Virus record (IMG/VR): IMGVR_UViG_3300008120_000097
Location: 18,283 to 67,906 of that record
Direction: 5' to 3' (one strand)
Source: a virus
DNA: 49,624 nt
Shown here: positions 4,226 through 7,725 of the stretch, piece after piece
Layout of the letters: every line of letters starts with the position of its first letter
Position numbering within the stretch: the first letter of the stretch is position 1
The notes under the pieces: generated by a model
What the model saw: the letters and a program-made list of their open reading frames with translations, nothing else
Told to the model about the DNA's origin: nothing
Database searches by the model: none
Translations under genes and position numbers: made by a program

Positions 4226-4456
4226 TCATTCAATTTCAATGATGACACGGCGCAAACAACCACGGTTGTCGCGTTGAGCATAGACAACAAATTCTCCATC
4301 TCCAATTTCAGTATCAACAGAAGTAAACAGATTCCAATGAGGAAGCTGCACAGTATCTGTATCCGATACTTCAAGATGAGATGGGTCAACAAGAGCGATT
4401 GAACCGGAATCACAGGCAACTGTCCCTATGATCTTTGGTTTGCATAATACGGCCAT
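4226..4456 (-). CDS. Small conserved phage/cyanobacterial hypothetical protein, 76 aa
   Basis: The start is taken at 4456 (MAVLCKPKIIGTVACDSG). The patterns VACDSGSIALVDPSHL and GDGEFVVYAQRDNRG resemble a small beta-rich family I recall from phages and cyanobacteria (DSG..L.VDP and GDG.Y.VY). Function is not known to me. A perfect 7-bp hairpin (4461-4486) ends 4 nt upstream of the ATG and a TATAAT on the minus strand (4487-4492) precedes the hairpin, so the mRNA may begin in or next to the stem. Confidence 0.65.
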   Translation of the reverse strand: MAVLCKPKIIGTVACDSGSIALVDPSHLEVSDTDTVQLPHWNLFTSVDTEIGDGEFVVYAQRDNRGCLRRVIIEIE

Positions 4457-4460
4457 AGTG

Positions 4461-4486
4461 AGGTTCTTGTAAAGCACATAGAACCT
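4461..4486 (-). promoter_or_regulatory. 5'-leader hairpin before 4456 gene, with TATAAT just upstream
   Basis: AGGTTCT (4461-4467) and AGAACCT (4480-4486) form a perfect 7-bp stem ending a few bases before the start codon. TATAAT on the minus strand (4487-4492) abuts it, so this is one of the few hairpins here with a promoter-like box in the expected place. Confidence 0.55.
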
Positions 4487-4492
4487 ATTATA

Positions 4493-4649
4493 TCAAGGGG
4501 CCGTAGAAGAACCACGCCAGGCCCTGGGGAGCAGAAGTTTTTGTGGTTTCCTTCTGCTGGTAAGTGAACAGCCCTGCCGTGTAGCTATCGGTGGGGTTGC
4601 GCCCCAATAAGAAAGATGTTGTAAAATGATGATATAAGATAACTATAAA
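4493..4649. other. Divergent intergenic region with several hairpins
   Basis: A 157-nt non-coding gap between divergent genes. It holds GCAGAAG/CTTCTGC (4531-4537 and 4551-4557, perfect 7 bp), TGGGG/CCCCA around TTGCG (4592-4606) and a GGCCC/GGGG-rich stretch. The A/T-rich end (ATGATATAAGATAACTA) before the 4650 start could hold a plus-strand promoter. No open frame of interest. Confidence 0.5.
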
Positions 4650-4922
4650 ATGCACAGCGCCAGTCCTGAAGCTAATCAATTCTTAGCAAACTTTATTGGT
4701 GGCCAAGAATTTATCCCTGTCACGGTTCCTACCCAAGATATTGCATTTGATTATGAAATGATGGGTGGACCAATCCGTAACATGGAACGTCGTGCACGTG
4801 ACTATCGTTTCAGTGAACCAGGTAACGTGGGGATGAATACTGAACGTGCAATGCGTGAGTTAGATGCTGCACGAATTATGTCTCCAGGTTTGTTTCCTCC
4901 CAACTATTACCTGAAACCTTAA
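4650..4922 (+). CDS. Hypothetical phage protein, 90 aa
   Basis: MHSASPEANQFLANFIGGQE starts a 90-residue soluble protein with Met/Arg-rich centre (MMGGPIRNMERRARDYRF) and a Pro-rich end (GLFPPNYYLKP). No Shine-Dalgarno is seen, but A/T-rich sequence directly upstream could carry a promoter. It is one of the few plus-strand genes within the minus-strand module and its style (FPPNYY) resembles the virion module proteins. Function unknown. Confidence 0.65.
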   Translation: MHSASPEANQFLANFIGGQEFIPVTVPTQDIAFDYEMMGGPIRNMERRARDYRFSEPGNVGMNTERAMRELDAARIMSPGLFPPNYYLKP

Positions 4923-4992: not shown

Positions 4993-5157
4993 GTGGCAAA
5001 TGCCGTGACTCAATTAACTTATCGTGGTGTTCCTTACAACAAGGAAGAAGAAGCTTTAGCAAACCGTAACTGGTGGAACTTAGCGCACCGTCCTACGCTT
5101 TGGCTTCGGTATCGCGGTCAACAGTACCGTCCCATCCAGACTGGCGGATTACTTTGA
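4993..5157 (+). CDS. DUF4278-like cyanobacterial/cyanophage small protein
   Basis: A short GTG-started gene (GTG at 4993; a second GTG at 5005 is possible) giving 54 residues. It has the two signatures of DUF4278 as I know them: LTYRGVPYN near the N-terminus and LRYRGQQYRP near the C-terminus. The family is found almost only in cyanobacteria and their phages and has no established function. It is strong evidence for a cyanobacterial host. The structured non-coding block at 5163-5300 starts 5 nt after its stop. Confidence 0.82.
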   Translation: MANAVTQLTYRGVPYNKEEEALANRNWWNLAHRPTLWLRYRGQQYRPIQTGGLL

Positions 5158-5162
5158 AGCTA

Positions 5163-5213
5163 GAGAGGATCCCGTTCACGGGGTTTAAGCAAGGGTCGGC
5201 CCTTACTCCTCTC
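5163..5213. ncRNA. Compact three-way-junction RNA candidate
   Basis: A 7-bp closing stem (GAGAGGA 5163-5169 with TCCTCTC 5207-5213) encloses two hairpins: CCCG-ttca-CGGG (5171-5182) and AAGGG-tcgg-CCCTT (5191-5204), joined by an 8-nt linker. All pairs are perfect. Function unknown; it may be a 3'-end structure for the DUF4278 gene or a free RNA. It is too short for a tRNA and lacks tRNA loops. Confidence 0.4.
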
Positions 5214-5228
5214 GTTGCTTCATCGTTG

Positions 5229-5298
5229 CGATGTCACAGCTTCCACTCTGTGACATCGAATAGTCATCCCTGAAGATGACGGACCAGTGGCCACTGGT
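5229..5298. terminator. Array of three strong inverted repeats between convergent genes
   Basis: CGATGTCACAG/CTGTGACATCG (5229-5258, 11 bp perfect, 8-nt loop), GTCATC/GATGAC (5263-5280) and a perfect 16-bp palindrome ACCAGTGGCCACTGGT (5283-5298). None has a strong T-tract, so terminator activity is uncertain. The site lies between the ends of a plus and a minus gene, where bidirectional termination is expected. Confidence 0.5.
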
Positions 5299-5328
5299 GG
5301 TCTGCAGAACCAAAGAAATTATAAAGGA

Positions 5329-5643
5329 CTAAATGATCGTTGTCGAGCCCCGGAACTTCTCACGGCTCAACCGGTGCGTAACCTGATCACCATGCTCTGG
5401 GATTTCAGAAGGTCCTTGATGGACAAGGATCTCCCAGATTGCGTGGTTGATCTTCATTAGTTGGGTGCAGTAAGTCAGGATCAACTTGTTCTTATCTTGA
5501 CCAGATTTGTAGGTGAGTTGTTTTTTGGTGACACCAAAAGGTTCGTCCTCATTGTCTTTGGTATAGCAAGAGATCCAGTAAGTCGCTTGCCTTTCCTTTT
5601 GTTTGCTGGCGGTAAACCCTTTCATCAGTGATAGAGTGTTCAT
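5329..5643 (-). CDS. Hypothetical protein, 104 aa
   Basis: MNTLSLMKGFTASKQKERQ begins a 104-residue basic protein; a second start (MKGFT, 5625) is possible. AGGA directly precedes the ATG at 5643, so initiation signals are poor. The sequence (TYWISCYTKDNEDEPFGVTK...) has mixed alpha/beta character and no recognised motif. An AGCCGTG/CACGGCT hairpin (5731-5752) lies in its upstream leader. Confidence 0.6.
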   Translation of the reverse strand: MNTLSLMKGFTASKQKERQATYWISCYTKDNEDEPFGVTKKQLTYKSGQDKNKLILTYCTQLMKINHAIWEILVHQGPSEIPEHGDQVTHRLSREKFRGSTTII

Positions 5644-5730
5644 TCCTATGATTTTTCATGGGGCGTTACCCGTAACCAGCAACGGTCAGGGCCTTGCCTC
5701 GTGAAGCTTGGTCTGAGCTGGAGAGCATAG

Positions 5731-5752
5731 AGCCGTGGTTCCACACACGGCT
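5731..5752. terminator. Intercistronic hairpin before 5643 gene
   Basis: AGCCGTG (5731-5737) and CACGGCT (5746-5752) form a perfect 7-bp stem with an 8-nt loop between the stop of the 5773-5994 gene and the leader of the next gene. A TTTT lies downstream on the plus strand only. Confidence 0.5.
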
Positions 5753-5772
5753 TAGCTTTTAATTGAAGGTGA

Positions 5773-6229: not shown

Positions 6230-6369
6230 GGAAATTGAGACGGGTCGTAAGCGGGCAAGTATTAGCTGATTCCTGTTTTCAGGTAATACATGCTGATACC
6301 TGCCGTGTGCTACAGTGCTGGGGCTGATCAGAAAGCAGCAAAGCGACTGGGGTGAGATCCAGTTGCAAG

Positions 6370-6399
6370 AGCGGCGGGGGTGACATCCTGCCGCTTTTT
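6370..6399 (+). terminator. Rho-independent terminator-like hairpin (plus strand)
   Basis: AGCGGC (6370-6375) pairs with GCCGCT (6390-6395) and is followed by TTTT on the plus strand. No plus-strand gene obviously ends here, so it may be a bidirectional structure after the minus-strand gene ending at 6407. The 6230-6406 gap contains nothing else convincing apart from CCTG-tttt-CAGG. Confidence 0.45.
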
Positions 6400-6406
6400 A
6401 ATGCTT

Positions 6407-6793
6407 TTAACACTGAGAAGGAAATACGACAATGCTGTCGGGCAGTGCCTCCAATGCGCGGCGGATGGTGTCCCAGTCCTTGGGTGACGGCCGCCAGCCG
6501 TCTTCGTGCTGCTCAACGAGCGCTAGCGCCTGCTCTTTCAAGCTCGGCGGCTTGGGGCGACGAGCGGCGCGGAGTTGCCTTGATTCGCCGGACCAGCCTT
6601 CACAATCCAGCCACTCACAGCACGCCTCCAACTCCTCGTCCCCACCCCACTGGGCGGCTTGAGTGGCGATGTCTTGCAACTTGGTGTTGGTAACAGTGAC
6701 CAGCACACACGGAGACAACGCAGAAAATTCGGGTGCCTCTCGCCACTGCTGCACTAACTCTGGCGGTGGAATAATTGGGTGTTGTTCTTTCAT
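6407..6793 (-). CDS. Picocyanobacteria-type hypothetical protein, 128 aa
   Basis: MKEQHPIIPPPELVQQWRE starts a 128-residue protein with EACCEWLDCEG, ARRPKPPSLKEQALALVEQ and TIRRALEALPD blocks. I recall this architecture from many uncharacterised Synechococcus and Cyanobium proteins and cyanophages. It is probably all-helical; function unknown. ATG overlaps the stop of the ArdC-like gene by ATGA, so both are co-translated. Higher GC than most surrounding genes, consistent with acquisition from a host. Confidence 0.75.
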   Translation of the reverse strand: MKEQHPIIPPPELVQQWREAPEFSALSPCVLVTVTNTKLQDIATQAAQWGGDEELEACCEWLDCEGWSGESRQLRAARRPKPPSLKEQALALVEQHEDGWRPSPKDWDTIRRALEALPDSIVVFPSQC

Positions 6794-7725
6794 GCTGCAA
6801 CCAACTCCTCCTGAAATTGTTCCTGGTACATAAACTGATCAGTGGTTGTAATAATTTCTTGGTAAGCACGGAAGATTCGATCACCGGACTTAAGTAGATC
6901 AGCTACAACATCATCAGACGCAACGTTATGATGAACAATGTACTGGAAGCTGCGACCACCAAGATCCAAACCGTAATAAGAACAAACAAGATACGCAACT
7001 GACTCGGCTTCCAGTTCTTTGATCGAGGACGAGTCGTGCTCTTGGTACTCATCACGGTTGTGCAGAATAGCGTGACCAAGTTCATGCGCCATAACACTGA
7101 TCTGTGTTGCTTGGTTGAGATCTTTAGAAATCTCAATCTTGCTGGCGCGACCTTGATTGGCAAACCAACAGCGGCCAAGCGCCTGTCCCAAGCCATCTTG
7201 GCCAACTAACTGCGTCTCGACCCGACGCTGCTTTGCCAAGGCAATCATTCCATCCATGACAGCTTCAGAGATGTTTCCATCCAGCTGTGCCATCATAGTT
7301 GACGTATCTGGTTCGGGGATCGGATCCCCGTGGGTTTGATGGTGGTCGTAAACCTTGACTCCACGGAACCGAATAGCAATCTTATCGGGCGTGCCATCAG
7401 GCTTCCGAATGACATTGCCATTCTCGTCGCGCTTGTCAATCAACACTGGCGCAAGGATCCAAATCGGTTTGGTAAATTCTCCTTCCTTGAGTTGCCGATT
7501 AAATTTCTCGTTCCACTTAGTCCTGCCTGCAACAAATGGACTGAACGCCCAGCCACGCTTTTGTTGCGCAAGCATAATCAAGAGCTTGTTATTGAAGCTG
7601 TAATCATGGATCTGCCTGATGGCAGAAAGAAAACCAGTCCAATCTTTAGAATCAAGAACAGATTGGATACCAGCTTTCAAAGCTTCAAGCGCTTTGTCAG
7701 GAACCTTTGGTAGTTTGTTGTCCAT
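6790..7725 (-). CDS. ArdC-like / ImmA-type metallopeptidase, possible anti-restriction protein
   Basis: 311 residues with two domains. The N-terminal part (about 25-125; YSFNNKLLIMLAQQ, GRTKWNEKFNRQLKEGE, PIWILAPVL) matches the single-strand-DNA-binding region of ArdC-like proteins. The C-terminal part has a zinc peptidase HELGH at 214-218 with downstream acidic KELEAES near 236-242 as the likely third ligand. ArdC proteins of plasmids protect incoming DNA from host restriction, so an early anti-defence role is inferred. A 7-bp hairpin and a TTTGCACAC leader precede the ATG. The gene overlaps 6407-6793 by ATGA. Confidence 0.8.
   Translation of the reverse strand: MDNKLPKVPDKALEALKAGIQSVLDSKDWTGFLSAIRQIHDYSFNNKLLIMLAQQKRGWAFSPFVAGRTKWNEKFNRQLKEGEFTKPIWILAPVLIDKRDENGNVIRKPDGTPDKIAIRFRGVKVYDHHQTHGDPIPEPDTSTMMAQLDGNISEAVMDGMIALAKQRRVETQLVGQDGLGQALGRCWFANQGRASKIEISKDLNQATQISVMAHELGHAILHNRDEYQEHDSSSIKELEAESVAYLVCSYYGLDLGGRSFQYIVHHNVASDDVVADLLKSGDRIFRAYQEIITTTDQFMYQEQFQEELVAA

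Follow-up and report, generated by a model that had tools for sequence, protein, structure and literature searches.

To our knowledge, structured non-coding RNAs (ncRNAs) encoded by phages are few, and the function of most of them is unknown. The pRNA of phi29 is a small phage ncRNA with a three-way junction, and it multimerizes by loop-loop contacts; its loops are, as far as we know, not self-palindromic. GOLLD and ROOL are structured ncRNAs encoded by phages outside of coding genes, often near tRNAs, and their symmetric, self-complementary loops are used to form homo-oligomers (PMC12286853). The element described here has the same type of location and, judging from its sequence alone, loops of the same type.

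The window, the whole stretch of DNA analysed here, is a 49.6-kb part of an IMG/VR virus record of 67.9 kb, and encodes a large terminase that shares 64% identity with the terminase of Synechococcus phage S-EIV1. A preliminary description of this DNA had pointed out a dense structured block after a small DUF4278 gene, consisting of a three-way junction, an 11-bp hairpin, a 6-bp hairpin, and a 16-nt palindrome. The block lies between this gene and a gene for a 104-aa protein (Table 1). All four are present where it placed them; the 11-bp hairpin (arms 5229-5239 and 5248-5258) and the palindrome are perfect. It had overlooked the strand, a fifth hairpin with a promoter (5299-5346), and an outer helix.

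Architecture of the locus and predicted transcript

Table 1. Features of the block at 5155-5346 and its flanking genes (window positions)
Feature	Position	Strand	Remarks
Predicted ncRNA	5155..5311	-	~157 nt, 3' end approximate; from alignments, covariation, and covariance-model matches
-35 hexamer TCGACA of putative ncRNA promoter	5346-5341	-	17-nt spacer; 11/12 consensus matches together with -10
-10 hexamer TATAAT of putative ncRNA promoter	5323-5318	-	spacing to H1 constant in most members
H1, GGU-[U]-C-UGCA-G-ACC	5311-5299	-	hairpin at 5' end, or site of dimer formation; apex palindromic; in all members read
H2, ACCAGU-GGCC-ACUGGU	5283..5298	-	spacer-less palindromic hairpin; covarying arms, apex GGCC or GCGC
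H3 hairpin, apical loop UUCAGG	5263..5280	-	lacking in some relatives
H4 hairpin, conserved apical loop AGUGGAAG	5229..5258	-	covarying stem
Linker with GAUGAAGCA	5214..5225	-	partly paired in variable outer helix
Outer helix	5155-5160 with 5217-5222		as found in window; overlaps DUF4278 stop codon
Three-way junction	5163..5213	-	closing helix P5, H6 (loop CCGA), UUAAA linker, H7 (loop UGAA)
DUF4278 gene	5005..5157	+	converges on ncRNA; PF14105, E 1.4e-6
104-aa gene	5329..5643	-	upstream, co-directional; 3' end contains ncRNA -35

On the minus strand, a sigma70-like sequence (TCGACA-17-TATAAT) is found directly upstream of H1. TCGACA is kept in L004-L007, L009, L045, and L051, and L034 has TTGACA. 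The distance from the -10 hexamer to H1 is exactly 6 nt in 16 of the 20 members scanned; in the isolate S-CBS4, TATAGT is followed by 6 nt and H1 when read by eye. Throughout the family, the minus-strand order is the promoter, GGUUCUG(AU)CAGACC, a palindromic hairpin without a spacer (its centre is usually GUGGCCAC), an optional hairpin with a UUCAGG loop (retained in L010, L043, L045, and S-CBS4), the AGUGGAAG-loop hairpin, ACGAUGAAGCA, and the three-way junction, in which the loop CCGA/CCGCA and the linker UUAA are conserved. Host RNA polymerase would use this sigma70-type promoter, which lies within the 3' end of the 104-aa gene, so that transcription is inferred to start near 5311 on the minus strand and to read leftwards to about 5155. 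The transcript would begin with GGUUCUG and fold into a pair of short hairpins at its 5' end, whose tips are self-complementary (H1 and H2), one or two hairpins with fixed loops (H3 and H4), the GAUGAAGCA linker, and the three-way junction.

Other identities of the block were considered. A ATGAAGCAA start in the linker opens nothing but short, unconserved frames, and neither ARAGORN nor Rfam matches the element as a tRNA or tmRNA. No intrinsic terminator (GC-rich hairpin followed by a T-tract) is called at 5155-5325. The lack of a T-tract had been noted before and is correct for the window; T-rich tails follow the junction in several relatives (L036, L045, L051, L086, and S-CBS4). The 104-aa protein has no Pfam match.

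Relatives and genomic context

Relatives were gathered by searches with the 104-aa protein and with DNA patterns made from conserved pieces of the element. Besides the window, 28 IMG/VR contigs contain the element, and so does a gap without annotation in S-CBS4; each phage record has one copy. Model R1, which was built without L086, recovers the copy of this S-CBS4-like phage (terminase 58%, ribonucleotide reductase 71%) with 43.7 bits and an E value of 2.7e-7. The same contig carries an abortive-infection-associated abiF RNA (Rfam RF03085, 48.2 bits) at 4833-4869 on the minus strand. L166 and L167 were found by the junction pattern alone, yet in both, two palindromic hairpins follow each other at the 5' end (GUACU-GGCC-AGUAC and CUCUC-GGCC-GAGAG in L166; GGGCGUU-GGCC-AACGCCC and CCCUG-GCGC-CAGGG in L167).

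The covariance model and synteny, not BLAST, led to the copy in S-CBS4, which lies at about 4705-4533 on the minus strand of HQ698895. The model match is marginal (14.4 bits) and lies in the syntenic place, a few hundred bases past the terminase gene; on reading of its sequence it proved to be a divergent copy of the element. The 5' part reads TATAGT, 6 nt, GCAU[U]CGCGAUGC, and GGGGGUG-GUUCAGG-CACCCCC, and the 3' part GGAAAGG-AGGGGAAG-UCCUUUCC, GACGAUGAAGCA, the junction, CUUUU, and tRNA-Thr. The copy matches the family in the H3 and H4 loops, the linker, and the junction, whose loops CCGCA and UAUCGC are much like those of L033/L036. This tRNA-Thr (UGU), found by ARAGORN at 4456-4527 on the minus strand of HQ698895, is absent from the feature table of the record.

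In all S-EIV1-like phages with both flanks present, the element lies between thyX and the polA operon, on the same strand, with varied genes inserted around it. In S-CBS4-like and other cyanophages it is found at other sites, directly before a tRNA in L166 and S-CBS4. Near thyX, the window also encodes a 311-aa protein (6790-7725, minus) with matches to ArdC-N-like and M78 (IrrE-like) peptidase domains, which possibly has an anti-restriction role.

These positions could be taken to mean that the element is a 5' leader or a processive antiterminator (put/EAR-like) of the polA operon, or the 5' leader of a tRNA gene. An opposite-strand DUF4278 gene, however, stands between the element and the operon in the window and in many relatives, and the operon seems to have a conserved TATAAT box of its own, which probably serves it. 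A put-like element is always located 5' of a co-directional operon; L086 has convergent genes only on that side, the element of L167 points into a convergent gene, and neither has a co-directional gene shortly after the element. The T-rich tails past the junction also speak against a leader, which we consider quite improbable. In the window, L086, and L167 the downstream genes are either unrelated or in convergent orientation, and gene order shows the element to be independent of its neighbouring genes, a separate predicted transcription unit.

The preliminary description had offered two interpretations, a non-coding RNA or a nuclease-resistant 3' end. The second, taken as the 3' end of the DUF4278 mRNA, is not supported, since the element is on the opposite strand with a predicted promoter of its own and persists without an adjoining DUF4278 gene in L010, L021, L039, L045, L086, L167, and S-CBS4. 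A bidirectional terminator, or again a nuclease-resistant mRNA 3' end, would suit the dense hairpins of the window and their place between two genes that converge on them and end at 5157 and 5329; given the different neighbours in relatives, the invariant loop sequences, the promoter in front, a complexity far beyond that of terminators, and no T-tract in the window, such a role is very unlikely.

The small DUF4278 gene is found at several different places (window 5005-5157; L009 298-432 and 2465-2614; L010 4665-4799), twice in L009 and opposite to the neighbouring window-type genes; for these reasons it resembles a small mobile cassette. Two more structured RNAs, so far uncatalogued, seem to lie in this region as well. 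Element A (window 4495-4640, minus) directly follows the present element, here element B, in L045, L051, L033, L036, and L043. Its stems change, motifs such as GGAAACCACAAAAACUU stay, and Rfam has no match for it. The conserved TATAAT box lies between element A and the 83-aa gene of the polA operon. Element C (window 5645-5760, minus), with AGGCUUCACGAGGC and GCGGGUAACGCC(C)CAUGAAG, is followed in the window by the 104-aa gene, and in L021/L029 and L039 by element B itself. By eye, a loop of element C pairs with an upstream stretch (CCAGC/GCUGG, CCAGA/UCUGG, GAAGAU/AUCUUC) as a covarying pseudoknot, and the element is perhaps riboswitch-like.

Of 13 other records of the S-EIV1 group, 12 yielded no copy of the element, and the thirteenth and S-EIV1 itself (L171) yielded weak, chance-like matches only. 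As no credible copy was found in S-EIV1, the closest isolate, or in the 13 related contigs, the putative RNA is dispensable within this group. Neither 200 genomes from the host order nor 386 from the cyanobacterial phylum gave a credible copy. The weak matches in L165 and L168 (cyanobacterial genomes), S-EIV1, and L173 either have no 5' hairpins or fall within coding or simple sequence; L085, L087, and L088 match by chance and do not have the structure. Among 71 pattern matches in genome contigs, the one inspected in Synechococcus (L116) looks like coding sequence; the rest are in unrelated bacteria, and their number is of the order estimated for chance. BLAST searches of 50,697 phage records with the window-, L051-, L166-, L167-, and L086-type elements returned chance matches or none. 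The element is present in several lineages of picocyanobacterial viruses. This distribution describes a small accessory gene, putatively for an RNA, that moves between cyanophage lineages.

Covariation, coding strand, and self-complementary apices

Both strands of the block fold better than all of 200 dinucleotide shuffles (z = -4.1 for plus, -5.0 for minus). In a coarse shuffle scan several other tiles of the window are similarly stable, so stability alone proves little. The most stable 160-nt tile in this rough test is at 6241-6400, with inverted repeats at 6255-6293 and 6367-6398, the latter terminator-like. The window has 3 perfect palindromes of at least 16 nt, where 0.65 would be expected. 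The main evidence for the block is conservation and covariation, not stability.

For H4 and the junction, 93.7% of cells are paired (36-48% in slid controls), and two-sided changes occur at 20 of 28 pairs, including 10 of the 11 pairs of H4. The preliminary description had named absence of covariation as speaking against its RNA; that absence is rejected, as none of 500 shuffles reaches the observed values. For the junction alone (19 members), 86.4% of cells are paired, part of the loss being misregistration of L030 and L167, and the covariation score is 0.46 against 0.22 in shuffles (0/500). A possible contact of the H3 loop (UUCA) with UGAA of the linker or of the H7 loop shows no covariation.

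An A-C cell on the minus strand is a G-U pair if read on the plus strand. The mechanical alignment of 13 members contains 23 G-U cells and 6 A-C cells on the minus strand. In 21 members dissected by hand, 690 pairs are Watson-Crick, 26 are G-U, 7 are other mismatches, and none is A-C; this count is biased at helix ends because G-U was allowed when choosing them, and H4 of S-CBS4 was entered minus one bulged base. The wobbles favour an RNA encoded on the minus strand, and together with the promoter they rule out a plus-strand reading. A covarying structure with one favoured strand strongly supports the ncRNA half of the earlier interpretation and shows selection on a predicted RNA structure on one strand. 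H1 and H2 are also perfect or near-perfect DNA palindromes adjoining a promoter, as an operator, a replication origin, or a recombination site could be. Their arm sequences, however, change freely while pairing holds, and G-U pairs favour one RNA strand, making a DNA-level element highly improbable.

The apex of H1 is UGCA, GAUC, GGCC, or CGCG, and all of these are palindromic. That of H2 is GGCC or GCGC and is palindromic except in S-CBS4. A random tetranucleotide is palindromic in 1/16 of cases, and about five separate changes all keep the property, for which we estimate a chance of roughly one in a million, with the H1 register chosen by eye and the H2 exception of S-CBS4. Since four contiguous apex bases are unable to pair within one hairpin, the constraint suggests pairing between two RNA copies. 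The intermolecular loops OLE L9.3 and GOLLD L21a are backed by the same palindrome-preserving argument (PMC12286853).

Copies of the RNA may associate via H1 and H2, either as symmetric kissing loops or as an extended duplex, and the working form would then be a dimer or a chain. During infection, the invariant loops and the linker would then bind, in trans, a protein or RNA partner from host or phage. The same gene could instead encode a monomeric base-pairing sRNA, in which the linker GAUGAAGCA and the loops of H3 and H4 serve as seeds and the 5' palindromes as protective caps. Unpaired invariant stretches are typical of seeds, and the predicted promoter of its own agrees with an sRNA, but this explanation leaves aside why the apical tetranucleotides change and stay palindromic, and the linker is partly paired in most members; we regard it as unlikely. 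The apex constraint favours a self-associating, trans-acting ncRNA. We therefore read the locus, with a probability of roughly 0.6, as a stand-alone gene for a small structured cyanophage ncRNA that acts in trans and self-associates via H1 and H2. Comparative data support the ncRNA gene itself well; self-association and trans action are what we infer from the apices and fixed loops.

Comparison with known RNA families

The Rfam search that had been proposed matches no family over the element at gathering score (Rfam 15; window and loci of seven relatives), and literature searches found nothing on it. At permissive thresholds, the best weak matches are mir-592 (E 1.6) and PhotoRC-I (RF01716, E 5.4). 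PhotoRC-I, the best weak match on the correct strand, is cyanobacterial and likewise has two hairpins joined by UUAAAC, but the element scores 9.7 bits, below its gathering score of 45, and PhotoRC-I is associated with psbA, which is not seen as a neighbour of the element. The element is similar in size to phi29 pRNA and both have a three-way junction; this is resemblance only. The element has no Rfam match, and its phages have large terminases of the S-EIV1/S-CBS4 type. Like the element, loop L9.3 of OLE has an apical palindromic tetranucleotide that switches between palindromes. OLE is an unrelated RNA in an unrelated host, and nothing else is alike.

The element is filed as a new RNA family within the known kind of phage structured ncRNAs, and not under any named family. 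GOLLD and ROOL are functionally the nearest phage ncRNAs, without homology: they are hundreds of nucleotides long, against ~160 nt here, no covariance (Rfam) match exists, and the element, unlike them, is found here only in cyanophages. The large multi-stem architecture of GOLLD, ROOL, and OLE is likewise lacking. Changes that preserve a palindrome in a self-pairing loop are found, with H2 of S-CBS4 as the exception; this is a feature common with GOLLD, ROOL, and OLE, not proof of kinship. Note that expression and self-association of the element are directly testable: it is small and clearly covarying, its promoter-like start is defined, and one of its carriers, the isolate S-CBS4, has a cultured host, Synechococcus CB0101. 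Tentatively, and at somewhat less than even odds, it may represent a compact, horizontally exchanged ncRNA class that is active as a homo-oligomer formed via the two tandem 5' palindromic hairpins, with the junction and fixed loops capturing a host factor, and thus a small counterpart of GOLLD and ROOL. If these hairpins do drive assembly, the element would be a minimal natural RNA homo-oligomer, and the puzzle of GOLLD and ROOL function would become approachable in a 160-nt system.
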